Shown here: piece by piece, positions 2,906 through 55,056 of the stretch | Position numbering within the stretch: the first letter of the stretch is position 1 | How the letters are laid out: each line of letters opens with the position of its first letter | From: Hyphomicrobiales bacterium | GTDB taxonomy: Bacteria; Pseudomonadota; Alphaproteobacteria; Rhizobiales; Rhizobiaceae | Reading direction: 5' to 3' | Assembly: GCA_900473205.1 (NCBI GenBank) | Contig: UCLB01000009.1 | Location: 62,001 to 126,000, forward strand | Length of the DNA: 64,000 nucleotides | Made by a program: the position numbers and the translations under genes | The notes under the pieces: generated by a model | Databases searched by the model: none | What the model was told of the DNA's origin: nothing | The model's input: the letters and a program-made list of their open reading frames with translations, nothing else

Positions 2906-2985
2906 GCTCTTGAAGGGGTTAGAACCGTAGGCACCTTGATCACGAAGACATAACGGTTTCCTATCCGATTGAAGTCGCTCGTTTT
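2906..2985 (-). repeat. tRNA-like remnant a (T-arm to D-arm)
   Basis: Read on the plus strand, this stretch has the order of a reverse-complemented tRNA: CTCTTGA, a T-loop-like GGGGTTAGAACCG, an anticodon-like CTTGATCACGAAG and a D-arm-like CCTATCCGATTGA. It aligns without gaps over 63 nt with the remnant at 10084. The stems no longer pair well, so it is not a working tRNA. It fills the gap between two convergent genes; nothing else was recognised in 2834-3057. Confidence 0.5.
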
Positions 2986-3057
2986 TCGGCATTTACTTTT
3001 AGATGCAACAAGCAAATTCCTGAGACGCTTGCTCAACCGGTTTTAGGCCCGCACAAC

Positions 3058-4026
3058 TTATGCCCTAGGATCATACTCACCCAAGGACTCTGAATATTTG
3101 GCGAGGCTTTCTTCCGGCAAGAAGCGCTTTTCGATCTCCAGAACCGTCGGGAAGCCAGTGAGGTCGAGATAGGAGAAAGTGCCAAGTTTAGACGATTTCT
3201 GTGTTTCCATGAAATCGTTGAAAGCATCGGCGCTTCTTTCCCGGCAATCGCGGAGAAAGGCTTCCATCATCAGTTGGGAAACTTTGGAGATGGAGATATT
3301 GTAGACAGCGGCACCGCTTGCCTCATATTCGGCTGTCGATAGAGCCGGTTTGACGGAGCTTGCATTGATGTAAATGTCGGTCTCCGGGAAGGCTTCCAGC
3401 ACGCGCTGCATTTCTTCGCGGCTCTGAAGCGCCATCACCATCAGCATATCGACACCACAGGTTAGATAGGCCTCGCAGCGGCGGAGAACTTCATCGACGC
3501 TGCCGCCCACCGCGGCTCTCGAATCCGTTCGGGCAATGACGACGACATCCGGATCCAGTTCATCTCGTTTGGCACAGGCGGCGCGATATTTGGCACTGGC
3601 CTCCGAGATCGGCACGACCTCGACACCCTTGGTAAAGCCGCAGCGCTTGGGAAAGGTCTGATCCTCAAGGAAAAAGCCTGCAACACCGGCGGTGATGAAT
3701 TCATGAACCGCGCGCGTGGTGTTCACCGCGTTGCCAAAGCCCGTTTCGCAATCGGCAATGACGGGAATGCTGATCGACTGGCAGATGCGGCGGATATTAT
3801 CGACCGCTTCCGTCAAGGTCATAAGGCCAGCATCCGGCATGCCCATAATGTGAGCGGCGGCCTGGGAGCCGGATTGGAAGAACAGGCGAAAGCCTGCGGC
3901 TTCTGTCAACTGAGCGTGGTGCGGCGTTGCGCCAGAGATACCGACGAGCGGCCTGCGCTCCTCGCGCAACTGACGCCGCAACTCAGAACTCATCCGACCA
4001 GATATGACCATGGGGCGAAGATGCAT
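3058..4026 (-). CDS. isocitrate lyase / PEP mutase family enzyme (2-methylisocitrate- or dimethylmalate-lyase-like)
   Basis: A 322-residue (beta/alpha)8 enzyme of the ICL/PEPM superfamily, which cleaves or forms C-C or P-C bonds next to a carboxylate with Mg2+. The metal motif is D92-C-E94-T-G-F-G, with Glu in place of the usual second Asp, followed by E121-D-Q and KRCGF (Cys129 kept, the usual His replaced by Phe131). The ATG at 4026 is preceded by GGGAGG at 7 nt. The gene is divergent from the Tct transporter operon and shares an operator region with it, so it probably degrades the imported acid. The second homologue at 6227 belongs to the same module. Confidence 0.82.
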   Translation of the reverse strand: MHLRPMVISGRMSSELRRQLREERRPLVGISGATPHHAQLTEAAGFRLFFQSGSQAAAHIMGMPDAGLMTLTEAVDNIRRICQSISIPVIADCETGFGNAVNTTRAVHEFITAGVAGFFLEDQTFPKRCGFTKGVEVVPISEASAKYRAACAKRDELDPDVVVIARTDSRAAVGGSVDEVLRRCEAYLTCGVDMLMVMALQSREEMQRVLEAFPETDIYINASSVKPALSTAEYEASGAAVYNISISKVSQLMMEAFLRDCRERSADAFNDFMETQKSSKLGTFSYLDLTGFPTVLEIEKRFLPEESLAKYSESLGEYDPRA

Positions 4027-4074
4027 GTGTAATCCTCCCTAAAACATCGATGATAGAAATTGCATTGCCACTGT

Positions 4075-4152
4075 AATATGTCAACACGATTGGCGAAATT
4101 ACGGGATTCAAGCGCGATTATCGAATTTAATAAGAAAATATGTTGACATATT
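4075..4152. promoter_or_regulatory. divergent promoter region with palindromic operator
   Basis: AATATGTTGACATATT (4137-4152) is a palindrome broken only at its two central bases, and it contains a -35-like TTGACA facing tctB. The reverse complement of its right part, AATATGTCAACA, recurs at 4075-4086 and puts TTGACA in the promoter facing the divergent lyase gene. The two sites make an exact 12-bp inverted repeat 54 bp apart. They are good candidates for binding by the GntR-type regulator at 9294. Confidence 0.6.
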
Positions 4153-4204
4153 GCAAGTCATTAGGCTTATTTTGTGAAACTGATATGACGGCATGGGAGG
4201 AGCT

Positions 4205-4684
4205 ATGACTGTCAGAAACTGGCCTTTGGCCTCATTTGGCATCACGATATTTGTCATAGGCGTTGCGGTGTTTCTCAATGCCCGCGGCATTCAAGGTGGC
4301 TTTGGCTATGACGCCGTCGGCCCTGCGGTTTTTCCGATGATCATAGGTGGCGGCTTCATAGTCGCCGCCATCCTGATCTGTCTCGAAAGCCTTAGCGTCG
4401 ATGCAGACGCGAACGACGGCGAAGAGAAAATCAACATCTGGCCGGTCATCGTCATCTCGGCGGCAGTGCTGATCGAAGCATTGCTGATCAAAAAGGCTGG
4501 TTGGGTGCCAATGGCAACGATTGTCTTCGTGGCTGGTGCTTGGGCCTTCGGCGACCGGAGGTTCCTGCTGAATACCGTATTCGGCCTCGTTCTCTCCGGC
4601 ATCATTCTCTTCGCCTTTAATTGGGGGCTCGGCCTCGATCTTCCGCTCGGCATTCTCGCGCCGATCCTTCCTGCCAACCAGTAG
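4205..4684 (+). CDS. tripartite tricarboxylate transporter TctB family protein
   Basis: A 159-residue small membrane subunit of a TctABC secondary importer, with four hydrophobic helices (near residues 8-25, 37-57, 78-95 and 107-150). The frame can also begin at 4193, but GGGAGGAG immediately before the ATG at 4205 fixes the start there. It is the first gene of the operon tctB-tctA-lyase-tctC-abrB. The family is recognised by size, topology and position just before TctA rather than by catalytic motifs. Confidence 0.8.
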   Translation: MTVRNWPLASFGITIFVIGVAVFLNARGIQGGFGYDAVGPAVFPMIIGGGFIVAAILICLESLSVDADANDGEEKINIWPVIVISAAVLIEALLIKKAGWVPMATIVFVAGAWAFGDRRFLLNTVFGLVLSGIILFAFNWGLGLDLPLGILAPILPANQ

Positions 4685-4695
4685 GTCCGGCTAAA

Positions 4696-6210
4696 ATGGA
4701 TACTTTCTTCGATCTCATGAACGGTTTTGCCGTTGCCCTCACCCCTGCCAATATCGGCTGGTCTTTGCTCGGCGTGACACTGGGAACCGCCATCGGTGTA
4801 CTGCCTGGCATTGGCCCCGCGACAACTGTGGCACTTCTGATGCCCTTGACCCTCGGGCTTGATCCGATTTCGGCCTTCATCATGTTTGCGGGCATCTATT
4901 ATGGTGCGCAGTACGGCGGCTCCACGGCGTCCATTCTGCTTAACACGCCCGGTGAAGCCGGGGCGATGATGACGGCGCTCGATGGTAACGCCATGGCCCG
5001 TAAGGGTCGCGGGGCGCAAGCGCTGGCAACGGCGGCCATCGGCTCGTTCGTTGCCGGAACGATTGCGACCATCGGCCTAACATTTGCGGCACCACTTCTC
5101 GTCAATGTCGCACTGCTTTTGACCGCACCTGATTATTTTGCACTGATGATCCTGTCGCTTGCGACTGTGACGACCGTCATCGGCCGGTCCATCGGCAAGG
5201 GCATTGCCGCACTCTGCTTCGGCCTATTCCTTGGCTGCATCGGACTTGACCCGCAGACCGGACAGGAACGCTTCACCTTTGGCATTATCGAGCTTCTGGA
5301 CGGCATCGATACGGTGGTCGTGGCAGTCGGCCTGTTCGCTGTCGGCGAAACGCTGTTCGTGGCAGCCCGTGAAGGCGGCGTTGCCGACAAGATTCATGCC
5401 CTCAAGGGCTCGATCTGGATGAGCCGCGAGGACTGGTCGCGGTCCTGGAAGCCTTGGCTGCGCGGCACCATCATTGGCTTTCCCATCGGTGCCATTCCAG
5501 CGGGCGGAAGCGAATCGCCGACCATTCTGTCCTACACTCTGGAAAAGAAACTGTCCCGCAACCCGGAAGAATTCGGCAAGGGTGCGATTGAAGGTGTCGC
5601 CGGACCCGAGGCTGCCAACAATGCGTCCGCGGCAGGTGCATTGTCTCCGCTGCTGGCGCTGGGTCTGCCGACCTCAACGACAGCCGCTGTCCTACTTGCC
5701 GCCTTCCAGCAATATGGCCTGCGTCCCGGCCCGCTGCTCTTCGAAAGCAACAGCGATCTGGTCTGGGGTCTGATTGCCAGCCTCTATATCGGCAATGTGC
5801 TGCTGCTGATCCTCAACCTGCCTATGGTCGGCATCTGGGTAAAGCTGCTGTCGATCCCCAAGCCTTGGCTGTATGGCGGGATCCTCGTGCTGGCATCACT
5901 TGGCACCTACAGCATCAATGGCAATGCCGTCGATATCTTCCTTCTCTGGGTCATCGGTATCATCGGCTTCTTCTGCCGGGTTCTGGATGTGCCGATCGTG
6001 CCCTGCATTCTCGGTCTCATTCTCGGGCCTATGATCGAACAGCAGATGCGCCGCTCACTGGCCATCAGCCAGGGGGACTGGAGTGTGTTTCTCACCCATC
6101 CGGCATCGGCAATCATGCTGGCGCTAGCAGCCTCCATCATCTTTGTCCCGGCCCTGATGCGTCTTCGCCGGTCCAACGCACCGACTTCCGGCACAGCCGA
6201 AACGCCCTGA
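4696..6210 (+). CDS. tripartite tricarboxylate transporter large permease TctA
   Basis: A 504-residue polytopic permease that carries substrate with Na+ or H+. It has the family motifs [17 protein letters not shown] near the N-terminus, the [15 protein letters not shown] segment, and the matching second-half signature [14 protein letters not shown]. The start is the ATG at 4696, 11 bp after the tctB stop, giving the usual N-terminus ([20 protein letters not shown]). The substrate is a di- or tricarboxylate by family; the two lyases nearby suggest a methylated or branched acid. Confidence 0.92.
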
Positions 6211-6226
6211 ACGAACGGAAATCATA

Positions 6227-7174
6227 ATGTCACTGAGAGCCGAATATCGAAAACTCATCCGTGAACGCGCAGGGCACGTCATGCCCGGCGTCTATGACGC
6301 ACTGTCCGCCAGAATTGCGGAACGCGCAGGCTTCAAGCTGATCGGTGGCGGTGGCTTTGCCGCCATCGGCACCATGCTGGGCGGGGCTGATATGGGGCAA
6401 TCCAACATGCGCGACTATGCGGACCATTACGGACGCATCTGCGCGGCGGTGAACGTGCCGGTCTCCGTGGATGCCGACACCGGCTTCGGAGATGTGCACA
6501 ACGTCACGCAAATGGTGCGCAGCTTCGAGACGGCGGGGGTATCCGGCATCATGATTGGCGACCAGAGCTTTCCCAACCGCTGCGGATATCTGCCGGGGAA
6601 GGACGTCATCTCGGTCGAGGAAATGATCGCGAAAATACGCGCTGCCGTCGCCGCCCGTCGCGATCCCGATCTCGTCATCATTGCACGCACGGACTCTCGC
6701 TCGGATCTCGGGCTCGATGAAGCGATCCTGCGCTGCAAGCTTTATCTTGAAGCGGGGGCAGACCTCGCCAAGCCGCAAGGTGTAGACAGGCCGGAGGAAA
6801 TTGCCCGCTGCATGGAGGAAATCCCCTGCGAGTTTGCAGCAACGCTCTCTCAGGCCGCGCGCCAACGGTTTACCGATATTGCCGAGTTGAAGGCTCAGGG
6901 CGTGGCGACCATCAGCATGCCGTCGATCTCGCTGTTTGCAGCCGCCCACGCGGTCGATGCGACCCTACGTTCGCTCGCGACCGCTGGCTCGCTGTCTTCG
7001 GTGGAAGGCGAGCTGATGCAACTCGACGATTACAATGAACTCGTTGATCTCAACGGCATGATCGCCAATGAAATCACGTTTCGGGAGGAGGCCGCACGCC
7101 TCGTTCAGCGCCACGGCGCACATTCTACACCAAAAACTTCAGAAACCATCGAAATGGGAGGAAACGTTCGATGA
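6227..7174 (+). CDS. isocitrate lyase / PEP mutase family enzyme, second copy
   Basis: A 315-residue member of the ICL/PEPM superfamily inserted between tctA and tctC. The Mg2+ motif is canonical (D82-A-D84-T-G-F-G), but the next motifs are unusual: G111-D-Q instead of E-D-Q, and N117-R-C119-G-Y121 instead of K-R/K-C-G-H. The Cys is kept and the His lost. It differs clearly from the divergent copy at 3058, so the two probably act on different intermediates or in a lyase/hydrolase pair. Oxaloacetate decarboxylase- or dimethylmalate lyase-like activities are possible. Confidence 0.82.
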   Translation: MSLRAEYRKLIRERAGHVMPGVYDALSARIAERAGFKLIGGGGFAAIGTMLGGADMGQSNMRDYADHYGRICAAVNVPVSVDADTGFGDVHNVTQMVRSFETAGVSGIMIGDQSFPNRCGYLPGKDVISVEEMIAKIRAAVAARRDPDLVIIARTDSRSDLGLDEAILRCKLYLEAGADLAKPQGVDRPEEIARCMEEIPCEFAATLSQAARQRFTDIAELKAQGVATISMPSISLFAAAHAVDATLRSLATAGSLSSVEGELMQLDDYNELVDLNGMIANEITFREEAARLVQRHGAHSTPKTSETIEMGGNVR

Positions 7175-8139
7175 TATCACGCAGACTGTTACTGGCAGCT
7201 TTTGCCACCACGCTTACCCTACCGGCACTACCCGCCGCAGCGCAAAATATCAGAACCCTCGACGTGACGGTGCCGGGCGGACCCGGCAGCGGGCTCGATC
7301 AGGTGGCTCGCGCCATCGAAGACACGGTGCGCCATGAAAAGCTGGCACCATCCGTGAAGGTCACCAACATTCCCGGTGGTGGCGGCTTTGTCGCCATCTC
7401 GCAATTCGTCACCAGCAAAGAAGGCAACGGCAACGCCGTGGTCGTGCAGGGTGCCGGTACGGTGTTCTTCCCGCTGACCAACAAGACGCCAGTAACATTG
7501 GCGGATGTTCGTCCGCTGGCGCGACTGGCGGGTGAATATGAGGTCATCGCCACCCGCTCCGATTCCGAACTCAATTCCTTCAAGGACCTGATGGACAAGT
7601 TCAAGGCCAATCCCGGCAGTGTTGCCTGGGGCGGTGGTTCGCCGGGCTCGACTGAAAACATCTTCTTCGCACGTTTGGCGAAGCAGGCCGGTCTTCAGCC
7701 AAAGCAGGTGAACTTTATTCCCCACCCGAATACGGGTGAAGTCGTGGTATCCGCACTCAACGGTCAGGCAACCGTTGTCGGCGGTGGTTTGCAGGACTTC
7801 CTGACACAGGTGCAGGCCGGGAAGATGAAAATTCTGGCCGTCGCCGCGCCCGAACGCCTGCCGGGCGTGGATGCTCCGACCCTGCGTGAACTCGGTGTTG
7901 ACGTCGTGTTCGCCAACTGGCGCGGTATCTCGGTGCACAAGAGCCTCGATGACAACCAGGCAAAGACGCTTGCCACCTTCGTGGAGAAAATGAAGGACAC
8001 ACCACGCTGGAAGCAGATCCTGAAGGATCGCGGCTGGCTGGATATGTATCTCAATGAGGCCGACTACCAGGCCTTCATCCAGAAAGAGACAGCCAGCGCC
8101 AAGGAAATCCTGAGCGAGTTGGGACTGGCTGCAAACTGA
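7171..8139 (+). CDS. tripartite tricarboxylate transporter substrate-binding protein TctC/Bug family
   Basis: A 322-residue periplasmic solute receptor. The N-terminus is a Sec signal peptide (MISRRLLLAAFATTLTLPALPAAA) with cleavage near residue 24. The mature part starts LDVTVPGGPGSGLDQVAR, the hallmark of the Bug/TctC family, and includes the ligand loop WGGGSPGSTENIFFARL. It overlaps the preceding lyase gene by 4 bp and the following membrane gene by one base, so the module is tightly coupled. Confidence 0.9.
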   Translation: MISRRLLLAAFATTLTLPALPAAAQNIRTLDVTVPGGPGSGLDQVARAIEDTVRHEKLAPSVKVTNIPGGGGFVAISQFVTSKEGNGNAVVVQGAGTVFFPLTNKTPVTLADVRPLARLAGEYEVIATRSDSELNSFKDLMDKFKANPGSVAWGGGSPGSTENIFFARLAKQAGLQPKQVNFIPHPNTGEVVVSALNGQATVVGGGLQDFLTQVQAGKMKILAVAAPERLPGVDAPTLRELGVDVVFANWRGISVHKSLDDNQAKTLATFVEKMKDTPRWKQILKDRGWLDMYLNEADYQAFIQKETASAKEILSELGLAAN

Positions 8140-9185
8140 TGCCTCCCAGGGCAAAATCCCTCACTGTCCTGCTGGTTCTGGCAGCGGGGGTGGCAGGCGG
8201 ACTTCTGTTCCGCCTGCTCCATCTTCCCCTGCCTTGGACGCTGGGGGCTATGTTCGGCGCGGCTCTTCTTTCCTTCTATGATCGCAGCCGGGTTCTGCCC
8301 ACCATCTTTCGCGATGGCGCGCGCCCTGTAATTGGCGTTATGGCAGGAAGCGCGTTTACGCCAGTTGTCGTGCAGACCATCACCGGATGGTGGATGCTGG
8401 TGCCGATACTGGTCATCTTCTTTCTGCTGGTCACGACCTGCGGATTCTATTTCTTTCGGCTTCTCGGTTATGACCGTTCCACTGCCATTTTCGCCTCGAT
8501 GCCGGGCGGGCTCGGTGAAATGACATTGCTGGGCGCGCAGTTCGGGGCGGATATTCGCAAATTGGTGCTTGTGCATTCCGTGCGCATCATCATCGTCGTC
8601 TCTGCCGTGCCGTTTCTTTTGACGCTGATGACCGATGTCAATCTGGTGAAAAGTATAGCACCCGTTGGGCATCACGCCGTCGCCAGCGCAGTCGATTGGC
8701 TGATTTTGCTCTTGTGCGCGTGCCTTGGTTATCTGGCGGGACGACCGCTGAGATCCTTCGGTGGCATCATGATCATGCCGCTGCTGTTCAGTGCTCTGGC
8801 TCACGGAACAGGGATGACCGCAATCGCACCGCCAGGATGGTTGGTAGCCGCTATGCAGGTGGTCATCGGCTGCATTACCGGCGCGAGATTTGCAGGCATC
8901 AAGTTTCACGAAGCACGGCTTGCGTTGATGCAGAGCATTTTCTGGACATCTATCCTGATCGGTCTCGCGCTTGTGGCAGCAGAGGTCACCAGCATCCTGG
9001 TCAATCAACCCTTTGCTGCGCTGTTCCTCGCTTTTGCGCCCGGCGGCTTTGCCGAAATGAGCATCATCGCTTTTGCGGCAAACATCGAAGTGGCCTTCGT
9101 AGTCACCTGCCACGTCTTCCGCACCATTTATGTGGTTCTGGCGGGCCCTTCCATTCACCGTCTCCTTGCGGGAAAAAGGACGTGA
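8139..9185 (+). CDS. AbrB-like family membrane protein
   Basis: A 348-residue polytopic inner-membrane protein built of two similar halves, each with a GG(L/F)GEM or GGFAEMS motif in a helix break (MPGGLGEMTLLGAQFGAD; APGGFAEMSIIAFAAN). Despite the family name it is not a DNA-binding AbrB. Such proteins often lie beside TctABC or TRAP genes. An extra transport or permeation role for the same substrate is likely but unproven. The start ATG shares its A with the tctC stop codon. Confidence 0.75.
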   Translation: MPPRAKSLTVLLVLAAGVAGGLLFRLLHLPLPWTLGAMFGAALLSFYDRSRVLPTIFRDGARPVIGVMAGSAFTPVVVQTITGWWMLVPILVIFFLLVTTCGFYFFRLLGYDRSTAIFASMPGGLGEMTLLGAQFGADIRKLVLVHSVRIIIVVSAVPFLLTLMTDVNLVKSIAPVGHHAVASAVDWLILLLCACLGYLAGRPLRSFGGIMIMPLLFSALAHGTGMTAIAPPGWLVAAMQVVIGCITGARFAGIKFHEARLALMQSIFWTSILIGLALVAAEVTSILVNQPFAALFLAFAPGGFAEMSIIAFAANIEVAFVVTCHVFRTIYVVLAGPSIHRLLAGKRT

Positions 9186-9293
9186 AGACTGATTGACCCA
9201 TACAGCCAACGCACCAGCCATCGAAAATCCATTCCGGTCTTTGAGCCGATGCGCTAGTATCAAGCGAACTGATAAACGAGATTGGCATTGAGC

Positions 9294-10061
9294 ATGGATC
9301 GCATCGACAGTCTGAACACGGGCATTCAAGACCCCACTGTGGAGGTAGAAGGGACGCTCGCAGAACGGCTTTTCCATCAATTGACCGAAGCCATTCTTAT
9401 GGGCGAAATTCCGCTCGGTTCGAAAATCAGTGAGCCCGCTTTGGCCCAGCGTTTCGGTGTCAGCCGTGGCCCCCTTCGCGAAGCAATGCACCGCCTGCAG
9501 GAGCGCCGCCTGATTACACGCACCGCCAACCAAGGCGCACGCGTGACAGAAGCGACACCGGAGAGACTGTCTTCGCTGTTTTCCGTGCGTGAAATGTTGG
9601 AAGGTCTGGCTGCGCGAGAAGCAGCCATCAAGATGACAACAGCAGATTTCGTGAAGCTCCGCGAAACAATCGAGCACCACGAGGCCGGGCTTGCCGGGCT
9701 GGAACCCGGTCAACACAACGCGCTTGGCACGGTTGATAGAGACTTTCATTTCCAAATCGCCCAATCGAGCCAGAACGACCTGCTGATAAAACTGCTCTGT
9801 GAAGAACTCTATCCGCTTCTGCGTCTCTATCGCAGCCGCAACGATAGTCTCGTTCTGCGACAGCGTGCAGTGGTCGAACACAAGCGTATCTACGACGCCA
9901 TAACCGACCGGGACGCCGATCTCGCCGAAATCATGATGCGCCGCCACATCGGCAGCGCCAAGACGCGCCGTGTCGAGGCGATGCAGCGTGACATGGCGTT
10001 GGAGGAGGCAGTTACATCATCTGCCCGTAAGCGAAAGCTCAAGCAAAATGCTAGTCGTTAA
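9294..10061 (+). CDS. GntR-family regulator, FCD (FadR) subfamily
   Basis: A 255-residue transcription factor. A winged helix at about residues 18-85 includes EPALAQRFGVSRGPLREAM; the FCD ligand domain follows, with the metal-binding pattern DRDFHFQIAQ and HKRIYDAI followed by MMRRHIGSA. A TTG 12 bp upstream could also serve as start, but the ATG at 9294 gives the normal N-terminus. It lies last in the tct gene run, 108 bp after the membrane protein, and probably controls the divergent operator at 4075-4152. Confidence 0.88.
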   Translation: MDRIDSLNTGIQDPTVEVEGTLAERLFHQLTEAILMGEIPLGSKISEPALAQRFGVSRGPLREAMHRLQERRLITRTANQGARVTEATPERLSSLFSVREMLEGLAAREAAIKMTTADFVKLRETIEHHEAGLAGLEPGQHNALGTVDRDFHFQIAQSSQNDLLIKLLCEELYPLLRLYRSRNDSLVLRQRAVVEHKRIYDAITDRDADLAEIMMRRHIGSAKTRRVEAMQRDMALEEAVTSSARKRKLKQNASR

Positions 10062-10083
10062 GAAGTTCACCCGATATTTACGC

Positions 10084-10159
10084 CCTGAAAGGACTTGAAC
10101 CGCAAACACCTTGATCCGGAAGCTATCAGGCGAGGCTAACTGATTGAGAAAGCTTCAGG
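10084..10159 (-). repeat. tRNA-like remnant b
   Basis: The plus strand shows CCTGAAAGGACTTGAACCG (T-arm-like), CACCTTGATCCGGAAG (anticodon-arm-like) and GGCTAACTGATTGAG (D-arm-like), 63 nt from CTGA to GATTGA with the same spacing as remnant a. Position 10136 onward doubles as the last codons of the ParE-like toxin. It marks the left edge of the toxin-antitoxin/recombinase island. Confidence 0.5.
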
Positions 10160-10429
10160 CCACTCCTGAGCCCCGTGTAATACGCGTAGGATGCGGATCG
10201 TAGTTCCGCTAACTGCGTATGCCGCTACGTAAGGCGTTCCGCTGATTACAAGCTCGCGCGTCCCGGCAATTCTGCCAAGCCGGCCACTTGCTGGGAAATC
10301 GATCAGGCGACGGACTGCAACGACGAGGCGTTCGTCAACCAAAACGGCGGCGGCCGGGTTCTCTAACTCGATAAACGTAAAAATTGCATCGCGATCCGAT
10401 AAGGCAAACGCAGACCAAGTTAGTCTCAA
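10136..10429 (-). CDS. type II toxin, RelE/ParE family
   Basis: A 97-residue RelE/ParE-superfamily toxin with the typical opening WSAFALSDRDAIFTFIE, the core LIDFPASGRLGRIAGTRELVI and the closing strand IRILRVLHGAQEWP. Whether it cuts mRNA or poisons gyrase cannot be told. The start codon overlaps the stop of the antitoxin gene (ATGA), the usual antitoxin-first order. Its last codons lie inside a tRNA-like remnant, so the C-terminus may have been changed at an integration joint. Confidence 0.85.
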   Translation of the reverse strand: MRLTWSAFALSDRDAIFTFIELENPAAAVLVDERLVVAVRRLIDFPASGRLGRIAGTRELVISGTPYVAAYAVSGTTIRILRVLHGAQEWPEAFSIS

Positions 10430-10734
10430 GACGTCACACCCGCCGCCTTGTTGCGCGCAGCCTGCCGACGCTTTTCGAAATGAGCTTCGACTTCATCGTC
10501 TGAAATATCCGGTCTTGTATCATTGAGCGCCTCAAGCACCTTGGCGCGAAACCAGGTATCGTGAGCCTCGCTGCCTGAAAAAAGTTCAAGCGGCAACATG
10601 CCCTCATTGGCGGTCCTCGTAAGCAATATGCGAACCGCGTCTGACACCGTAAGTCCCATACCTTCCAGAACTAGGGACGCCCGGTCACGAACGTCAGCAT
10701 CGATACGAGTTTGAACGAGCGCATTTGCAGCCAT
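10426..10734 (-). CDS. type II antitoxin, RelB/DinJ family
   Basis: A 102-residue antitoxin. The ribbon-helix-helix N-terminus (NALVQTRIDADVRDRASLVLEGMGLTVSDAVRILL, split here for length) has the RelB/DinJ pattern, and the acidic C-terminus would wrap the toxin. The frame stays open further upstream, but the ATG at 10734 has GGAG at 8 nt and gives the family N-terminus (MAANALVQTRID). It probably represses its own promoter together with the toxin. Confidence 0.85.
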   Translation of the reverse strand: MAANALVQTRIDADVRDRASLVLEGMGLTVSDAVRILLTRTANEGMLPLELFSGSEAHDTWFRAKVLEALNDTRPDISDDEVEAHFEKRRQAARNKAAGVTS

Positions 10735-10807
10735 AACTATCTCCAGATTGGTATGGAATATTAATGCAATTGAATTACAAAATCTAGCATTCGTCTTTTC
10801 GCCAATC

Positions 10808-47097: not shown

Positions 47098-47362
47098 AGG
47101 CTCATCCCTCCCATCAGACGAAGACGTGTAAGTCCGCTCTCTTACCAGCGACAGCCGCGTGCGTCACGGTGGCGGTGCTTCCAGTTATTACCGTTTTTTG
47201 AATTCTGTGAGCATGCTCTCCATTGATCTGTTGGGATCAGGGTGACGACGAGCCTGCCTCACGATGGGGCGGAGATTCAGGCACAACTAGCCCCCGCAAC
47301 GTTTTCAGGATACATACGTTGAAAATCAGTTGGTGCTAACATAAGACCCGAGGAGCCGATCG

Positions 47363-47761
47363 ATGAGGATCATGAAAAGCCTGATATTGAGTGCAGCCCT
47401 TCTAGCTGCCGTGCCGTCCTTCGCGGATGACACGAGACGCGAGGTCGTTCATTTCGCTGCGGGATCGTCCAGCTCCACCATCAAGTCTTCCGTAAAAGGC
47501 TATCAGACCGTCCAGTACTCGCTGTCTGTCACGGCTGGCCAGAAGATGAGCGTCCAGCTCGATTCGAATAATTCCAGCCTGTATTTCAATGTGACCGCGC
47601 CGGGTGCCAATGCGGCCATGTTTAACAGCTCGATAGACGGCAACGGGACAACCATCATGATCCCTTCAAGCGGCAAATATCTCATCGACGTCTATCTCAT
47701 GCGCAATGCGGCGAGGAGAAGCGAGGCCGCGACCTACGACCTTACACTCTACGTCGAATAG
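47363..47761 (+). CDS. secreted beta-sandwich protein, g-type lysozyme inhibitor-like
   Basis: A 132-residue protein with a signal peptide ending near PSFA (residue 21). The mature domain has IKSSVKGYQTVQYSLSVTAG, SLYFNVTAPGANAAMF and YLIDVYLMRNAARRSEAATY, a pattern I know from small periplasmic proteins often annotated as inhibitors of g-type lysozyme. Function is by resemblance only. GAGGAG is 7 nt before the start. Confidence 0.6.
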   Translation: MRIMKSLILSAALLAAVPSFADDTRREVVHFAAGSSSSTIKSSVKGYQTVQYSLSVTAGQKMSVQLDSNNSSLYFNVTAPGANAAMFNSSIDGNGTTIMIPSSGKYLIDVYLMRNAARRSEAATYDLTLYVE

Positions 47762-47803
47762 TCGATCCGGACATCGAGAAAGTGGTAGTGGGGGGAACAC
47801 GGC

Positions 47804-48553
47804 ATGAAAGCGTCAAGGACGTTATCCGGGCGGGATCTCCCCTTCTACGATGGCATGCCTGTCGAGATCGAAGTGAGGGGGTGGCTCGTTCTCGTCGCAT
47901 CGGTCTTGGTCGCATTTCTGGTGCTTACTCTCATTCCGCTGCGCAGTTTTCCGTACAATCTGGTTCCCACGCTTCTATTCGTCGGCATTCCGCTCCTGGC
48001 TCTAAGGGTCGTGGCCGGGCGACGCTGGACCTGTCTTTTCCGTCCGCTCCATCTTCGATCTTTTGTACTCATGTTGTTATTCGGATTAGCCACACTTGCG
48101 GGGTCGATGGCTGTCGGGTGGGTTCTGCAAAAGTTTTTCGAGCTGCACTCCAATCCGGTCGCAGACGAGATCGCGGCAATGTCGGCCGTGCAGATTGGTG
48201 AGGCATTCATCGCCACCAGCATTCAACTGGTCGGCGAGGAGCTTTTCGGGATATTCCCCTTCCTTGCTGTGCTCTGGCTTTGCGTCAAGCATCTGCATAT
48301 ATCACGGAAAATTGGAATCCTAATCGCCCTCGTCGTCTCCGGAATACTCTTTGGAGCGGCGCACCTGCCGACCTACGACTGGCATTGGGCGCAGTCCCTG
48401 ATCGGGATCGGGTCTGCTCGCATCATCCTCACTCTCGCCTACGTCGCCACCAGAAACCTCTGGGTCTCTGCGGGTGCCCATATCATCAACGACTGGGCGG
48501 GTTTCATTTTCGTGCTCGAGCTTGGCCATGTGCCGATCACCCCGGAGGCGTAA
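47804..48553 (+). CDS. CPBP-family intramembrane metalloprotease
   Basis: A 249-residue Rce1/CAAX-like membrane protease with about seven helices. The three motifs are present: VGEELFGIFPF (Glu-Glu), FGAAHLP (His) and SAGAHIINDW (His and Asn/Asp). Role unknown; bacterial members act on peptides or lipoproteins. It starts 42 bp after the secreted protein gene and may share its transcript. Confidence 0.82.
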   Translation: MKASRTLSGRDLPFYDGMPVEIEVRGWLVLVASVLVAFLVLTLIPLRSFPYNLVPTLLFVGIPLLALRVVAGRRWTCLFRPLHLRSFVLMLLFGLATLAGSMAVGWVLQKFFELHSNPVADEIAAMSAVQIGEAFIATSIQLVGEELFGIFPFLAVLWLCVKHLHISRKIGILIALVVSGILFGAAHLPTYDWHWAQSLIGIGSARIILTLAYVATRNLWVSAGAHIINDWAGFIFVLELGHVPITPEA

Positions 48554-48723
48554 GGGGTGGTCTAACCGATGCCACGTTACACCGGATCTTGCTTACCATG
48601 ACGGGCTTTAGTTTTTGGAGGTCTCTCGAGACTGGCCATCATTCCTTCAATCCGCATTCCGCATCATGACAAGCCCGTTGCACTGTTGTAACTGGAATAG
48701 ACGGCAGCAAACGGGAGGTCGGC

Positions 48724-50271
48724 CTGCGACGCTCAAAAATTATCGCGGTTTCGCTCCTTCTCGGTATCCTGGGTGCCGGCGTTCCGATCTTCGGCATGCT
48801 CTGGATCACATGGGCTCTGGCCCGAAGTGACGAGCAGGCGATGCTCAACACTGTTGCCGACCGCATCCTGATCCGGGCCACGCGCGCCGCCTCTGAAGCA
48901 GAGGCTGCAATCGCCATGTTATCCGACAGCGATGGCAAACCCTGCTCAACAGCAAAGATCGCGCTGATGCAGCGTGAAGTCTTCAATACGCTGACGATTG
49001 AGGAAATGGGATATCTTCAGGACGGAGCTTTACGATGCACGTCTTGGGGCACGCGTCTCGATCTCCCGGAGACAACTACGGACTTTCGAACGGAAAGTGG
49101 CTTGGACGTGACCTTCGCTCTGAGGCCAGCCCTCAGAGGTGGCACTCCCAAGCTCGCCTACAGAAAGGACAACTATAACGTCCTTGTCGATCCCGCGCGA
49201 TTTGTCGATGTGATCACGGAACAGAAAGTGCATATGGCGGTGGCCGCAAGAGACGGACGCGTCTTTGCGCATACTGAAGCGGCCGACCTTGAGGCCATCC
49301 GACGGATTGCCGCGCAGTCGCGATACGTTCCTGATCAAACCTATGCCTATGGGGTCGTCAAATCCGACGACTGGATCGCTATCGCTCTTGAACCGCATCC
49401 GGCACTATTCAGCACGTTACGACGAGAGCAACTTCTCATGCTGCCGCTGGCGCTTTTGCTCGCAGGCGTGATGGTGGCAACCGTGGTCTGGTTTTCCAGA
49501 CAAAGACTATCCATGCGCCGCGAACTCGAGATCGCGATCCGAAAGCAAGAGTTCACGGTACACTACCAGCCACTTATCGACTTGAAGACCGAGCAGTGTA
49601 TTGGCGCAGAAGCGTTGGTGCGGTGGAAGCGCCCTGACGGCAGTTGGGTTCGCCCGGATCTGTTCATCCCTGTCGCGGAACAGTCAGGGCTTATCCAGAA
49701 GATCACTGCACAGGTCATCGGTAGGATTGGAGATGACATCGGTCAGATTTTATCCCAGGATCCGTCCTTGCATATCGCCATCAATCTGTCGGCTGAAGAC
49801 CTTGCACACAGTAGTTTCCTCCCGCTTATTGACGCACTCGTTCGAGATCATCGCCTTAGACCCAACCAGATCTGGCTAGAGGCGACCGAGCGTGGCTTCC
49901 TCGACTACGCCGCTGTCAGCGAGACGATCTTGAGGGCACACCAGTCCGGCTACGTTGTCTGCATTGATGACTTTGGAACTGGCTATTCTAGCCTCCAGCA
50001 TCTTGAGCAGCTTTCGTTTGATGTCCTGAAGATCGACAAATCCTTCGTCGACAGTATTGGCATCTCATCGCCGAAAAGCATGGTGATCCATCACATCATC
50101 GAAATGGCGAAATCGCTTGGAGCCCGCATCGTCGCGGAGGGGGTGGAGCGCCCTGAACAAGCGGAATACCTCAAGGGGAAGGACGTAGAATTCGGACAGG
50201 GATGGCTGTTCAGCCGCGCGTTGCCGAATGACGAATTTGCCACTTATCTCCAAAAGCAAACGACCTCGTAA
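48724..50271 (+). CDS. EAL-domain cyclic-di-GMP phosphodiesterase with periplasmic CSS-type sensor
   Basis: A 515-residue membrane phosphodiesterase if read from CTG at 48724. The first helix (IIAVSLLLGILGAGVPIFG) lies before the first ATG (48796), and GGGAGG stands 5 nt before the CTG, so the CTG start is preferred. A periplasmic domain with two Cys (about residues 76 and 100) is followed by a second helix (LPLALLLAGVMVATVVWF) and a complete EAL domain: AEALVRW, LEATERG, IDDFGTGYSSL, LKIDKSFV, VAEGVE. It should hydrolyse c-di-GMP. Confidence 0.85.
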   Translation: MRRSKIIAVSLLLGILGAGVPIFGMLWITWALARSDEQAMLNTVADRILIRATRAASEAEAAIAMLSDSDGKPCSTAKIALMQREVFNTLTIEEMGYLQDGALRCTSWGTRLDLPETTTDFRTESGLDVTFALRPALRGGTPKLAYRKDNYNVLVDPARFVDVITEQKVHMAVAARDGRVFAHTEAADLEAIRRIAAQSRYVPDQTYAYGVVKSDDWIAIALEPHPALFSTLRREQLLMLPLALLLAGVMVATVVWFSRQRLSMRRELEIAIRKQEFTVHYQPLIDLKTEQCIGAEALVRWKRPDGSWVRPDLFIPVAEQSGLIQKITAQVIGRIGDDIGQILSQDPSLHIAINLSAEDLAHSSFLPLIDALVRDHRLRPNQIWLEATERGFLDYAAVSETILRAHQSGYVVCIDDFGTGYSSLQHLEQLSFDVLKIDKSFVDSIGISSPKSMVIHHIIEMAKSLGARIVAEGVERPEQAEYLKGKDVEFGQGWLFSRALPNDEFATYLQKQTTS

Positions 50272-50330
50272 GAAATCTCACTTGCCTAAGATGCGGATAC
50301 GCCTGTGTAACCTTAATCCAAGGACGTATT

Positions 50331-50750
50331 CTAACGTGGATCGAAAAGCATCAGGTTTCGGGGTCGGGGGTGATCAAGACCTGCGCAGTGGGCGGCCGCG
50401 GACGTAGTGAGATGGAATAGATCCTCGTCGGATACGGGCTTCGCTATCACTCCGAGCGTTCCCGGAACACCTCTGGACACCTATTTCGGGTTCCCCGTCA
50501 TGAAGATTACAGCTTTGCCTTCAGCAGCAAGCGCAGCCCCAATCTCGGGGACTTTCGGGCCGTCGGTCAGATTTACATCGACGAGCGCTATGTCTGCATG
50601 GGGAGCGAGATCTTTTGCATCAACCTTGCATGATGCTAGACCAGCAACCTCTAGGCCCGCCGCTACCACTGCATCCTCAATCATCATCGCGATGATCAAT
50701 TGGTCTTCAACAATGAGGACTTTGGGTCGGAGATTTGAGGTGTTCATCAC
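50331..50750 (-). pseudogene. response-regulator receiver domain interrupted by an amber codon
   Basis: The reading frame from 50750 gives a receiver domain: VLIVEDQLIIAMMIEDAV, the phosphoacceptor in ALVDVNLTDGP and VIFMTGNP. A TAG at 50481-50483 stops it, yet the same frame goes on with GVPGTLGVIAKPVSDEDLFH, including the conserved Lys, to a stop at 50331. One base change (probably CAG to TAG) explains it. The 89-residue product would lack the last helix. No output domain is present. Confidence 0.8.
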
Positions 50751-50939
50751 GCTAGAAGGCGCTTCTGACGCGAAAGTTCCTCCGTTCGTTAAGAATAAGT
50801 CGAAGTCATGGAGGTTGTCATCACTCAGCCGCGCGACTTGGTAGTGGACAGACTGATGCTTTAAACAGAAATTGGACGATCTGTTACAAGAGAAAGGGCC
50901 CCGAACCGAGTTCGGAGCCTATCAATGTCGTCGTAACCA

Positions 50940-51131
50940 TTATGCTCGGTCGACGATATCCTTCACTTTTTCCTTTGCTTCACCTTTGGCCTGCTGCGCA
51001 TGACCCTTTGCTTCCTGGGCCGCGCCCTTGGCTTCCATTTCGTGGTTGTCGGTCGCGTCGCCTACAGCCTGACGGGCTTCGCCAGCTACTTCATTGACCT
51101 TGCCCTTAACCTTATCCATGGTGCTACCCAT
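50940..51131 (-). CDS. CsbD family stress protein
   Basis: A 63-residue, very hydrophilic protein: MGSTMDKVKGKVNEVAGEAR and a lysine/alanine repeat tail (KGAAQEAKGHAQQAKGEAKE). CsbD proteins accumulate under general stress; their activity is unknown. The ATG at 51131 follows AGGAGA. The upstream EcfG-like promoter fits stress control. Confidence 0.88.
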   Translation of the reverse strand: MGSTMDKVKGKVNEVAGEARQAVGDATDNHEMEAKGAAQEAKGHAQQAKGEAKEKVKDIVDRA

Positions 51132-51173
51132 CGTCGTTCTCCTGTGTGAACTGCATTGTATTACTGCCAAAAG

Positions 51174-51199
51174 AACGGGTACTCCTGCGTTCTGGTTCC
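51174..51199 (-). promoter_or_regulatory. EcfG (general stress sigma factor) promoter before csbD-like gene
   Basis: Minus strand: GGAAC, 17 nt, CGTT, matching the alphaproteobacterial EcfG/RpoE2 consensus GGAAC-N16/17-CGTT. The -10 box lies 42 bp before the CsbD start codon. The remaining gap (51200-51546) has no recognised feature. Confidence 0.8.
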
Positions 51200-51546
51200 G
51201 CCAAAACGACAGACTTTTCGGAAGGATCGCGGAGGTGGGTTTACAAAGAACGAAATTTCGGAAGGTCAGACAGTCCTGCGTTAAGCGCATCCAACACCTC
51301 CTAACCTGACAGTTGGAGCGCGGCGATCAGGGAATCCACTAGCCTCTCGCACACCGTACTATAACGCTTTGGAATCTCAGTCACGCTCTCGAATTGCTAC
51401 GTACTAGTGACACGGAATAATCCGCCAACATGATTCTTAAGTCATTGCTTGTGCGACTATCAGCCAAGCTCCCGGCGCTGTTGAGTCTGCCAATGGAAGA
51501 GCTGCTTGAACAGCCAGTTAGAAAGCCTTGCGGCGCCGCCCCGGAA

Positions 51547-52633
51547 TTAAGCCCTGAGCGGACTACGTACGATCTCCGCATGCTGACCGTAGCGCGCTAG
51601 CAAGGATGTTGCAGCATCTCGATCGACGGCTTTCGAGAACAGATACCCCTGCCCGAGCCTGCAACCAAACGACAAGAGTTGGTCAAGCTGAGCGTCGGTC
51701 TCGATGCCTTCTGCCACAACCCGCAGGCCCAGCTTCGCGGCGATGCTGAGCAATCCCTCGACGATGATCACGGCACCATGACCTGAAACCAGCTGCTCGA
51801 CGAAGGATTTGTCGATCTTGATGATATCGACCGGGACCGTTAGAAGATGTGTAAGCGACGCGAACCCCGTTCCGAAGTCGTCGAGCGCGACACGCATTCC
51901 AAGTTTGCGTAGGGACCTGATCTCGTCGGCGACCACGTGATCGCGCTGGCCGAGATAAACGGACTCCGTCACCTCGAGAATAACGTGGTTCAGCGGGACG
52001 CCGGCATCCGCAAAGATCGTACAGAGCCGCTCTCGCAGATGTCCGGCGTGAAAGTCTGCCGCCGAAAGATTGATGCCGACGTGCTGGAAGGGCAACCCGC
52101 CGTCGAGCCAGGCGCGCATGTCTCTTGCGACACACAAGAGCATGCATTCTGTCAGCTTGGCAGCAACATGGGCGTCTTTGGTCGCTTCGTGAAAGTTGGC
52201 AGCAGCTATTATTTCCCCAGACGTGGCTCTGATGCGGCACAGTGCCTCGAATCCCACCACCTCGCCCGTATCAAGCCGTACGACCGGCTGATAATGAGCG
52301 TGTATCCGGTTTTCGGCCAGCGCGAGGCTGACATCACGTATAGCTCTAAACCGTCTCGTAAACGTGGTGCCGAGCCCAGCGCTGTATTCGATGAAAGTAC
52401 CCCGACTGCGTTCCTTTGCGTGGTACAACGCCATATCAGCGCACTGGCGAACCTGATCGGGAGTTTCTCCCGGGCCTGCGAGGCACCCCCCTAATGTAGC
52501 GCCTGGAGCTAGAACATGGCTAGCACAGTGCGCGTGTTCCTTCATAACCTGAAGGATTTCTGCCGCTAACATTGCCAATGAAGATTCTTGTCAATCGGCT
52601 TGGAATGTTGACCCCGTATCGGCGTCCAATTTT
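51547..52633 (-). pseudogene. 3' fragment of a GAF-GGDEF-EAL gene: truncated GGDEF plus whole EAL domain
   Basis: The minus-strand frame carries the last part of a GGDEF domain (QCADMALYHAKERSRGTFIE) and a full EAL domain: FEALCRI, ILEVTES, DDFGTGFASL, IKIDKSF, VVAEGIE. Everything before it, including the GGDEF active site, is missing because the IS element begins at 52634; an in-frame TGA lies near that edge. From a TTG/ATG near 52578 about 340 residues could still be made, so residual phosphodiesterase activity is possible. Confidence 0.82.
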
Positions 52634-54288
52634 GGCTCTGACTCACTTTTGATGAATTCTGGGCGTCGGCTGGCGTTGGTTTTGCAAAAGGAATCAGCGC
52701 CATGGTTCATTCGGTTCGCCCCTCCGCACTCGTGCCTCGAGGCTTTGTCATCGATGAGACAGCTTCTGCTGGCGACGCGATCATACTCGCTGTCCGCTCG
52801 AGGGATATGTCCAGCCCTTGTCCAGGCTGCGGAACAAGATCAGAGCGGATACACAGTCGTTATCATCGACGCCTCACGGATCTGCCCATCGCGGGAAAGT
52901 CTGTGCGATTGGTTATCGCCGCGCGCCGGTTCCACTGTGACGCAGTGTTATGTGGACGAAGGATCTTTACCGAGCGCTTCGAGCCAGACGTCCTGGCGCC
53001 ATGGGCGCGCCGTACCGCGCGGCTTGATCATATCGTCCATCATCTCGGGCTTGCCCTGGGTGGGCGGCCGGCGGCGTGTTTCGCTCGCAGGCTGATGGTG
53101 CCGGTCAGCAATGACACCTTGCTGCGTGTCGTCCGACGGCGCGGCACTCCGCGTTTCATTCCGCCGACGGTGATCGGCATCGACGACTGGGCGTGGCGGC
53201 GCAACCGGCGCTACGGGACGATTATCTGCGATCTCGAACGGCGTAAAACTATTGCACTACTGCCGGACAGAGAGCCAGCAACCGCTCAGGCCTGGCTTTC
53301 GAAACATCAACAGATCAGTATTGTCGCCCGCGACCGCGGTGGCGCCTACGCCCTTGCTGCAGCCAAGGCACTTCCGGAAGCAACCCAAGTGGCTGATCGA
53401 TGGCACTTGATGGAAAACGCAAGTCGGGCATTCCTCGACGCCGTGCGCAAATCCATGCGCCAGATCAGAACAGCGATCGGGTCCGCAACGATCAATCCGG
53501 ACCTGCTGACGGCCGCTGAGCGGATCCAATATCAGGGATATCTTCATCGAGAAGACACGAACGTAGCTATTCTGCACTTGGCCAAGTCCGGCGTTGCAAT
53601 CAAAGAAATCGTTCGTCGCACCGGGCACAGTCGCGGCCTCGTCAGGCGGGTGCTACGCGGTCAGAGATCCGACGTGTTCCGCGTACGAGAGAACTCGCTT
53701 GAAGTTTATCTGCCATGGCTCGACGCCCAGTGGAGTGCCGGCCACCGCAATGGCACACAGTTGTGGCGAGAGTTAACGCGCCAGGGGTTCCGGGGCTGCC
53801 TTCGTGTTGTAACCGAATGGGCGACGCGTCGGAGAAAGGCCGAAAAGATGGATTGTGATGCCTTGAGCCGTACGCCGTCGGCAAGGACTGTCGCACGCCT
53901 CATGACCATCGGGCGCGACGATCTTTCCAAGTCTCAGACCGTTACGGTTGCCGCGATTGAAGGCGGAGTGCCTCAACTCGTTGAAGCCCGGGAAGTGGTC
54001 GCCGCTTTCCAAGCCATGATCCGCAAGAAATCTCTTGCCGATCTCGAAGCGTGGTTGGAACGCGCTCGATCAAGCCTGGTAGCAGCCTTCGCCAATGGTG
54101 TAGCCAAAGATCGGGCGGCTGTCAGTGCCGCGATCAGTTCGCCATGGTCAAACGGACAGACAGAGGGGCAAATCACCAAGCTCAAGCTTGTAAAACGTCA
54201 AATGTACGGTCGAGGAAAAATTGACCTCCTTCAGGCCCGCGTCATCGGCATCGGATAGCCCACTGACCACCAAAATTGCGTCAGAGCC
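52634..54288 (+). mobile_element. ISL3-family insertion sequence (1655 bp)
   Basis: The ends are imperfect inverted repeats starting GGCTCTGAC; the first 21 bases of each end differ at three positions. The element holds one transposase gene. Flanking octamers differ (CCAATTTT on the left, AATATTCC on the right), so the expected 8-bp target duplication is missing. It interrupts a c-di-GMP gene whose two remains lie on either side. Confidence 0.85.
52702..54258 (+). CDS. ISL3 family transposase
   Basis: A 518-residue DDE transposase. An N-terminal zinc-finger-like segment (CPGCGTRSERIHSRYHRRLTDLP) is followed by IGIDDWAWRRNRRYGTIICD (first Asp), VADRWHLMEN (second Asp region) and SNGQTEGQITKLKLVKRQMYG (Glu), then LLQARVIG. 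It appears full length and intact, so the element may still move. Confidence 0.92.
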   Translation: MVHSVRPSALVPRGFVIDETASAGDAIILAVRSRDMSSPCPGCGTRSERIHSRYHRRLTDLPIAGKSVRLVIAARRFHCDAVLCGRRIFTERFEPDVLAPWARRTARLDHIVHHLGLALGGRPAACFARRLMVPVSNDTLLRVVRRRGTPRFIPPTVIGIDDWAWRRNRRYGTIICDLERRKTIALLPDREPATAQAWLSKHQQISIVARDRGGAYALAAAKALPEATQVADRWHLMENASRAFLDAVRKSMRQIRTAIGSATINPDLLTAAERIQYQGYLHREDTNVAILHLAKSGVAIKEIVRRTGHSRGLVRRVLRGQRSDVFRVRENSLEVYLPWLDAQWSAGHRNGTQLWRELTRQGFRGCLRVVTEWATRRRKAEKMDCDALSRTPSARTVARLMTIGRDDLSKSQTVTVAAIEGGVPQLVEAREVVAAFQAMIRKKSLADLEAWLERARSSLVAAFANGVAKDRAAVSAAISSPWSNGQTEGQITKLKLVKRQMYGRGKIDLLQARVIGIG

Positions 54289-54400
54289 AATATTCCACGC
54301 CGAAACACAGTTCGATTGTCACTCGCAACGTTTCGCCGCGGGCGATCATCTCCAGAATGGCATTCTGCAGTTCAAGAGTCATGGCAAGGAGTTCTTTTCG
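54289..54400 (-). pseudogene. 5' fragment of the interrupted GAF-GGDEF-EAL gene
   Basis: Directly against the IS end, the minus strand reads AFRKELLAMTLELQNAILEM then IARGETL, the usual opening before the GAF domain of rhizobial GAF-GGDEF-EAL proteins, on the same strand as the EAL remnant at 51547. About 35 codons remain; an in-frame TAA lies upstream. The GAF core and GGDEF active site are gone, so material was deleted. Confidence 0.6.
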
Positions 54401-55056
54401 GAAAGCGTGACTTTACTAACGCAACGTTGTTGTCAGGTTGCTGATGTACGTAAAGGCTTAGTAAGCCTGCTTGTTCCCGAGGCTTATGAGGGGCAATCGA
54501 AATTGCTGCTTAGGCACAGTGTTTCCCGTACCCGCCTTGATGTGAATCGAACCGTCGACATACGAGCGCGCACCCGTCGCATTCTATTGTATCTGACCGC
54601 GCCACGCCTGAGAGGACTGCTGACGTTAAACTTGCAGTCGGCGCGGCCGGACCGATGGTGTTCATCAACACAGTCTTGCTTAATCAAGCGGCTGTGATCT
54701 CCAAGAACATTATTTAGTGCTTTGGGAAGTAAGTCCTGCGTTGATGCTGGCTGATCCGTTTTTGCCGCGCCTGCAAATTTCGACATCTCAATGCTTAATA
54801 TCACAAAAACAAACGTCGATTTGTTCCGCTGGTTTGTGGCGCGAAACAAACGGCATCGTCCGATTGAACGTGATATCCTTACAGATGAAAGTTATGCCAA
54901 AATGCCGCGATGACATGAAAGACTAGTGCTGCCGCCAAACAAGCCATACTCTCGTGGGCAACTGCCCATAGGGTGTTGAGTTCAAGGTTTACCCTGCGGA
55001 CCGAACAAAGTGTCAGCCTGTGGCATTTTTTCAAAGCAGAATGGTCTGCACTATGA
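54401..55056. other. decayed gap with palindrome; no gene recognised
   Basis: AGGCTTAGTAAGCCT (54454-54468) is a perfect 15-base palindrome. A tRNA-like remnant follows at 54531. The only longer open frame (minus, 54849-54484) has no recognisable domain. Base composition is lower in GC than the flanking operons. Confidence 0.5.
54531..54605 (-). repeat. tRNA-like remnant h
   Basis: GCCTTGATGTGAATCGAACC, then GTCGACATACG and CACCCGTCGCATTCTA, follow the order T-arm, variable loop, anticodon and D-arm side of a reversed Met/Pro-type tRNA. It sits between the disrupted c-di-GMP gene and the Fbp-type operon. Confidence 0.45.

Follow-up and report, generated by a model that had tools for sequence, protein, structure and literature searches.

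Eight short stretches of a rhizobial genome look like the end of a tRNA gene read backwards, and the question they raise is whether they are relics or working parts. They lie in a window of 64,000 nt (the whole stretch of DNA analysed here; Hyphomicrobiales bacterium of the Rhizobiaceae, contig UCLB01000009.1, positions 62,001 to 126,000). A sequence-only reading had described them as degraded tRNA-like remnants in one orientation at the junctions of functional modules, and had offered two origins: scars of repeated integration at tRNA ends, or a dispersed tRNA-derived repeat family. Rhizobiaceae accessory plasmids are known for mosaic gene content.

Our analysis indicates that the elements, here called cores, are very probably the borders of mobile gene modules (cassettes) on Rhizobiaceae plasmids and the sites at which these recombine, forming a directional system. 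The modules are joined core to core, mostly co-oriented, and DNA from different sources lies on the two sides of a core. This reading offers a concrete mechanism and a sequence signature by which module borders can be read directly, also in pAtC58 of strain C58 and in pSymA, and would, if an enzyme were shown, provide a directional recombination tool for modules of 8-10 kb. No description of such a cassette system was found in the open-access literature searched, outside which subscription papers mostly fall.

The core and its copies in the window

The conserved part of the element spans about 25 bp, GCK-CTTGA-NNGGANTCGAACCNNCGACC, and corresponds to the reverse complement of a tRNA(Arg)-type 3' end. 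The consensus of the 149 Rhizobiaceae copies with at most one mismatch reads GCK-CTTGA-A-N-GGA-A-TCGAACC-NN-CGACCC. Beyond about -3 to +25 only position -7 exceeds 0.25 bits (exact set), and the copies share no common body. A position weight matrix built from these 149 cores, some of which are window copies, gives eight matches of at least 11 bits on the + strand of the window and none on the - strand:

Core 1, 2909..2926, + strand: CTTGAAGGGGTTAGAACC; 23.2 bits; left end of module 1
Core 2, 10084..10101, + strand: CCTGAAAGGACTTGAACC; 21.8 bits; D-arm-like CTAACTGATTGAG downstream
Core 3, 13832..13849, + strand: CTTGACAGGATTCGAACC; 24.6 bits
Core 4, 24409..24426, + strand: CTTGAAGGGAATCGAACC; 39.6 bits; directly after the stop of a GntR gene
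Core 5, 25999..26016, + strand: CTCGAAACAATTCGAACC; 16.4 bits, the lowest of the eight
Core 6, 26444..26461, + strand: CTTGAGCGGAGTCGAACT; 28.2 bits
Core 7, 41942..41959, + strand: CTTGAAAGGATCTGAACT; 20.2 bits
Core 8, 54536..54553, + strand: CTTGATGTGAATCGAACC; 32.8 bits

Read as tRNA, all eight would thus lie on the minus strand. Their scores range from 16.4 to 39.6 bits, while ten simulated windows (first-order Markov) held a mean of 0.3 matches of at least 11 bits and never more than one, which confirms the eight co-oriented elements. The copies at 2909, 10084, 25999 and 41942 are too divergent to have entered the matrix set, yet score 16.4-23.2 bits. Two weaker matches are found on the + strand, one of them at 58887 (8.5 bits), and the minus strand holds no match of even 2 bits. 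The same polarity extends over the entire contig (C26; 160,746 bp, the window being 62001-126000), where 18 of 18 matches of at least 8 bits lie on the + strand. On a second contig of this genome, C39, the four cores of at least 8 bits in the stretches read are all on the minus strand.

All eight window cores fall outside the large open reading frames (ORFs) taken as genes; those at 24409 and 54536 lie inside short mechanical ORFs of 94-158 aa. Core 1 is placed 3' of the stop of an NtaA-type monooxygenase gene (1361-2833). In annotated plasmid stretches all 18 cores viewed are intergenic (covering 6 of the 11 on pAtC58, all 9 on pB7.6 and 3 of the 22 on pAspH13-3a), annotation in PLSDB being incomplete. 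As a separate observation, an ISL3-family transposase gene (52702-54258) immediately precedes core 8.

Homology breaks at the cores

The intervals between successive window cores are numbered modules 1 to 7. Read base by base, the window, pB7.6 and pB19.1.4a are alike to the right of core 2 and unrelated to its left, and at core 3 the window and pB7.6 are alike up to the core with nothing in common beyond it. Two megablast blocks, 10086-13849 and 13847-24402, meet at core 3; the second, common to Agrobacterium plasmids, extends from core 3 as far as core 4. In the relative G247, the match to module 4 stops at core 5. The placement of the copies at module junctions, outside large ORFs and where module homology breaks, therefore stands.

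The same was seen across the family, where core loci were drawn from 45 genomes and from six named plasmids and 181 of them entered an all-against-all comparison, excluding those with less than 150 nt to the left or 250 nt to the right of the core. The pairs comprised 51 sharing the right flank only, 31 sharing the left flank only, 29 spanning the core and 239 matching away from it. The 82 one-flank pairs, chosen because their matches stop no more than about 60-90 nt from the core, reach an identity of 99.8% over 2 kb, and 77 of them (at least 150 nt) group into 12 right-flank and 17 left-flank families. Within this selection for nearness, all 51 right flanks begin at -20 to +17, and 28 of the 31 left flanks stop at 0 to +30, with the other three at -31, +42 and +53. 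Unselected BLAST ends behave congruently: for matches of at least 200 nt and 75% on 115 core-bearing loci, 27 of 157 starts and 30 of 161 ends fall within 30 nt of the core in both partners, an enrichment of about 20-fold (0.8% expected for one partner). The test of module edges named in the sequence-only reading has a positive outcome.

To which side each base of the core belongs can be read from 20 of the 31 left-sharing pairs (at least 80% identity and 180 nt) and 29 of the 51 right-sharing pairs. Left-sharing pairs keep CTTGA and agree at positions 5 and 6 in fractions of only 0.20 and 0.25, while right-sharing pairs agree at position 5 in 0.93 and at position -4 in 0.21. These alignments place the join within CTTGA, base -4 going with the left side and base 5 with the right. 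Moreover, an identical module end carries an identical core in different plasmids.

Recent movement of modules

An empty site in pAt13-2099-1-2a joins flanks that are separated in pAspH13-3a by 8,516 bp with a core at either end. The left match (97.7% over 1,505 bp) stops exactly after CTTGA, and the right match (97.4% over 194 bp) is followed by 1.2 kb of other DNA before it resumes. The joined core is a composite of both pAspH13-3a cores, and the missing 8.5-kb module encodes regulators and oxidoreductases.

A second module, of 8.0 kb, is 99.85% identical in pB7.6 and pAspH13-3a with different left neighbours. The relative G335, placed in the same genus as the window genome, has it too, on a contig where the module contains a further 3-kb insert. 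Its left neighbour in pB7.6 is found on contig C39 of the window genome at 94%, ending at a core.

Distribution and orientation

The exact 18-bp core occurs in 73 of 394 Rhizobiaceae genomes, representing 21 of the 109 genera sampled, with the reversed-pattern control at 0 of 394. Order-wide it was detected in 8 of 21 genomes of the family versus 1 of 376 from other families. At up to one mismatch (control 0), pAtC58 carries 11 cores across 393 kb, all on one strand, and pRL10 three, also on one strand; pTiC58, pSymB and p42e have no core at this setting. With two mismatches allowed, 9 of 9 cores on pB7.6 and 8 of 8 on pB19.1.4a share a strand, and 20 of 22 contigs with at least two exact cores are uniform in orientation (among the matches listed). 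Replication direction fails to explain the orientation on pAtC58, because one strand is kept on both halves of the circle.

Likeness to tRNA

The elements had been read as minus-strand tRNAs that can no longer fold, and the lack of a fold is borne out. ARAGORN predicts no tRNA in the window, and Rfam returns nothing at the gathering threshold and three matches at E<=5, none of them a tRNA, so that a covariance signal above background, which would speak for tRNA structure, is absent. Of the 149 copies, 31 can form the T-stem pair 5-19 and 31 the pair 6-18 (38.7 and 34.8 expected), and folding of core plus body yields a mean z of -0.24 versus -0.08 and -0.29 for controls (n=130). Without covariation, fold or tRNA prediction, the element is tRNA-like in sequence, not in structure, and a functional tRNA was rejected.

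Searched in one genome per species, the 25-bp consensus matches rhizobia and, elsewhere, mainly real tRNA genes. In 42 loci scanned from at least 120 matching stretches, 22 of the 26 non-rhizobial ones lie within true tRNAs (18 of them tRNA-Arg; the remaining four have none), and 16 of 16 rhizobial ones are without any tRNA gene. A host tRNA as the source was likewise rejected: the best score among the 32 of 42 own-genome tRNA matches read, a set that leaves out nine long ones and one other, is 18.6 bits (tRNA-Pro), and none of those read has CTTGA at that place. A reversed D-arm, proposed for several copies, holds up as an enriched motif, CTAAGCCATTGA-like at +30 to +75 in 15 of 130 non-redundant elements versus 1, 3, 1, 6 and 2 in five control windows, and is confined to this minority.

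A proposed mechanism

A module would run from the base after CTTGA through the next CTTGA, that is, NNGGANTCGAACCNNCGACC ... genes ... GCKCTTGA, and a single exchange between two cores would insert or remove it whole. We envisage a site-specific recombinase for which the approximately 20-bp arm on the right of CTTGA is the recognition sequence and CTTGA itself the place of strand exchange. The module would leave as a circle with one core and re-enter at another core, by which orientation would be kept along the series. The site may go back to a tRNA(Arg)-type gene whose 3' end was used for attachment, the tRNA fold presumably having been lost because only about 25 bp are needed. Scars of integration at tRNA ends, as first proposed, captures the likeness of the core to a tRNA 3' end and the break of homology there; the term is too weak, because the core is conserved among unrelated modules and recurs as the crossover point without a tRNA fold.

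Candidate enzymes

By association, the leading candidate for the enzyme, with perhaps one chance in three, is a tyrosine recombinase of the ATU_RS24025 type. The representative, a 380-aa plasmid protein of pAtC58 (P0001), is Cre/Xer-like by weak matches, has no match to the integron integrase family TIGR02249 at E<=0.01, and is encoded divergently from RHE_PE00001. This arrangement is found on pAtC58, pAspH13-3a and pB7.6, in the last with a toxin-antitoxin pair in between. Core and candidate occur together in 47 genomes, the core only in 26, the candidate only in 40 and neither in 281, an odds ratio of 12.7 that ignores the relatedness of the genomes. On 27 shared contigs, 39 of 42 cores lie on the strand of the candidate gene and 31 of 42 also upstream of it (among the matches listed); this count used P0001 places down to about 60% identity and near full length, with shorter pieces counted at genome level only. 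The nearest known core lies 2.6 kb from the recombinase, in genome G367. An attI-like core near the tyrosine recombinase was also looked for, and none was found at the recombinase platforms.

Two other enzymes were considered and dropped. The large serine recombinase of the pAtC58 type is present in 37 of 394 genomes, six of them with cores where about seven are expected, and hence shows no association. The IS91-type transposase (PF04986) appeared as fragments only, in 2 of the 22 genomes or plasmids searched. On pAtC58 itself, a three-gene unit at 40495-43834 (L273 4496-7835), which codes for a large serine recombinase and two proteins of RepB/ParB-like type, is enclosed by two cores together with one further gene.

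In 15 platforms, similarity is lost directly downstream of the RHE_PE00001 stop codon. The 3' end of this gene resembles a separate insertion hotspot (L431, pAtC58 15089-34740; L066, L065, L231-L246), and the genes that follow it in pAtC58 and pAspH13-3a are of defence type, with Qat, a KAP ATPase, an endonuclease plus helicase, restriction, TIR and SIR2 functions. One copy in the window genome (G000:C39:57648-58677; L254) is truncated, with similarity lost after residue 342; no recombinase remnant was found beside it on C39, and none of the six PF00589 matches of the genome lies on C26 or C39.

Evidence against the reading and alternative explanations

A number of observations weigh against cores as sites of a directional recombination system, and against the candidate enzyme as its driver. 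Several distant homologies of the window have a border at operons where no core is present, and those inside module 6 end away from cores. Position 6 agrees in 0.62 of the right-sharing pairs, a value that a clean join after base 4 fails to explain. To the right of the 8.0-kb module, pB7.6 and pAspH13-3a have, after a gap, a 73-77% stretch in common. An automatic search for occupied and empty sites over loci of at least 4 kb gave no pairs, because the informative locus, of 3 kb, fell under the length filter. No excised circle was seen, and recombination is read from its products. Orientation is mixed on pSymA (6 cores, 4/2), p42f (4 cores, 2/2) and pR132501 (4/1), as well as, at up to two mismatches, on pAspH13-3a (5/17) and pAt13-2099-1-2a (2/10), a setting at which the reversed control gives 5 matches against 59 real ones over six plasmids. 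Stretches of pAspH13-3a (NC_015184) at 9.7-18 kb (9689, 18205) and 226-233 kb (225784-232818) may be inverted blocks.

As for the enzyme, the candidate is missing from the genome of the window, so that the array there may now be idle, and, at E<=1e-40, from 26 of the 73 core-bearing genomes. It was not seen on pB19.1.4a, which carries eight cores and whose sole full-length PF00589 match belongs to another tyrosine recombinase, and 20 recombinase platforms contain no core of at least 11 bits within the 5-12 kb read. Tyrosine recombinase sites usually carry two inverted arms, while the core has one conserved arm. The candidate may act at the RHE_PE00001 3' end rather than on the cores.

Four other explanations of the cores were weighed. 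Tandem accretion, in which integrative elements with tRNA-targeting integrases of their own entered serially at one attachment site and later lost these integrases, seems unlikely. It would accommodate a core that is a tRNA-Arg 3' end read backwards and direct repeats that are mostly in one orientation, and variable island cassettes with tRNA-end repeats at their borders have been described (PMC10872708). On the other hand, an intact tRNA is found neither in the window nor in any of the 16 rhizobial loci scanned, identical modules recur in several contexts, the annotated modules viewed carry no tyrosine integrase, and the pAtC58 cores are spread across 393 kb.

Mobilisation by an HUH nuclease, with CTTG^A as the nick site, the one-sided arm as nickase recognition sequence and rolling-circle transfer from core to core, is in our judgement decidedly improbable. 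The invariant CTTGA, the single arm and the strand polarity would suit it, and CTTG^A is the nick of phiX174-type and IS91 enzymes. Against this, the PF04986 fragments are restricted to two of 22 genomes or plasmids, in a search that covered this HUH family and no other.

We give still less credence to exchange by RecA or other homology-driven processes, for which the cores would merely be the sole 20-25 bp common to the modules. The core is indeed the only sequence common to the elements. However, 25 bp is short for RecA, the variable core bases split at one place (after CTTGA) rather than being scattered over 18 bp, and about 180 places retain the core, mostly in a fixed orientation.

A SINE-like tRNA-derived repeat inserting into intergenic DNA, which is what the proposed dispersed repeat family would amount to, would fit the numerous intergenic tRNA-like copies but is hardly credible, given that no body in common extends beyond about 25 bp and that homology ends at the core rather than being interrupted by an insertion within homologous DNA.

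Comparison with known systems

Integrons combine co-oriented sites, a short invariant sequence that holds the single point of exchange, units with toxin-antitoxin genes and long arrays. The cores, very probably sites of recombination as argued above, share with them the mostly co-oriented placement between exchangeable units, the single exchange point, the presence of toxin-antitoxin units and the many-membered arrays. They differ in that the core lacks an attC-like hairpin (such a fold was tried and rejected, folding being no better than in flanking controls), in that no integron integrase was found beside the array, and in modules that reach 10 kb, carry their own regulators, encode on both strands and are bounded by a tRNA-like site.

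The dif (pdif) modules of Acinetobacter plasmids, according to PMC13141974, bear toxin-antitoxin genes and are extensively shuffled between plasmids, alternate in orientation (C and D), and are bounded by XerC/XerD arms around a 6-bp spacer. Plasmid location, toxin-antitoxin genes and shuffling between plasmids are thus common to both. In contrast to what that text describes, the core consensus is without XerC/XerD arms or a 6-bp spacer, and 20 of 22 core contigs are uniform rather than alternating (among the matches listed).

In additive flexible genomic islands and tycheposons, repeats of tRNA 3' ends precede or bound variable gene sets, and such islands are known from aquatic bacteria at a tRNA gene of the genome (PMC10872708). 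Compared with that account, the rhizobial cores occur without an intact tRNA in the window or the 16 loci, are degenerate, are distributed over 21 of 109 genera, and have a crossover resolved to CTTGA. By analogy, the core system may be a plasmid form of additive islands from which the tRNA was lost. Site-specific exchange between rhizobial plasmids has a precedent in the IntA/attA-attD cointegration of R. etli p42a and p42d (PMC3224233), a likeness based on the description of that system and not on its att sequence.

Judged from its sequence features, the core system would work like integrons or dif modules while failing the defining features of both. Whether it constitutes a third natural cassette-shuffling system beside these two, family-wide, with a directional, unstructured tRNA-derived 25-bp site, a cargo of whole catabolic operons, toxin-antitoxin units and other genes moved among plasmids of agrobacteria and rhizobia, and a recombinase acting in trans that belongs to no type so far associated with such arrays, we consider an evenly balanced proposition.

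Modules of the window

The seven modules are as follows, given without strand. The borders of modules 1 and 5-7 derive from the cores and not from comparison.

Module 1, 2914..10088: methylisocitrate-lyase-like gene, other ORFs and a GntR-type regulator, between cores 1 and 2 (NCBIfam matches below cut-offs)
Module 2, 10089..13836: RelBE-type toxin-antitoxin, DUF2513 and a hypothetical gene (names from the pB7.6 and pB19.1.4a records); the unit recurs elsewhere
Module 3, 13837..24413: flavin reductase, Xaa-Pro peptidase, ABC transporters, epimerase and GntR; 10.6 kb
Module 4, 24414..26003: one 419-aa ORF on the - strand; found in the relative G247
Module 5, 26004..26448: 445 bp without a 90-aa ORF, core-bounded at both ends
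Module 6, 26449..41946: 15.5 kb, from core 6 to core 7; may comprise more than one unit
Module 7, 41947..54540: 12.6 kb, with aspartate 4-decarboxylase among its genes; ISL3 transposase at 52702-54258

Module 3 is present as a unit in Agrobacterium and Rhizobium plasmids beside other neighbours. For module 4, G247 matches C26 86409-88000, from core 4 to core 5, at 96.7% with a different left neighbour. Module 5 is possibly an eroded or non-coding cassette. Module 2 is complete in pB7.6 (query 10086-13849, 89.4%) and mostly so in pB19.1.4a (10081-13700), two plasmids of A. vaccinii, and its first 2 kb are also found in G247 and G335. This RelBE/DUF2513 module is an analogue of the toxin-antitoxin cassettes in integrons.

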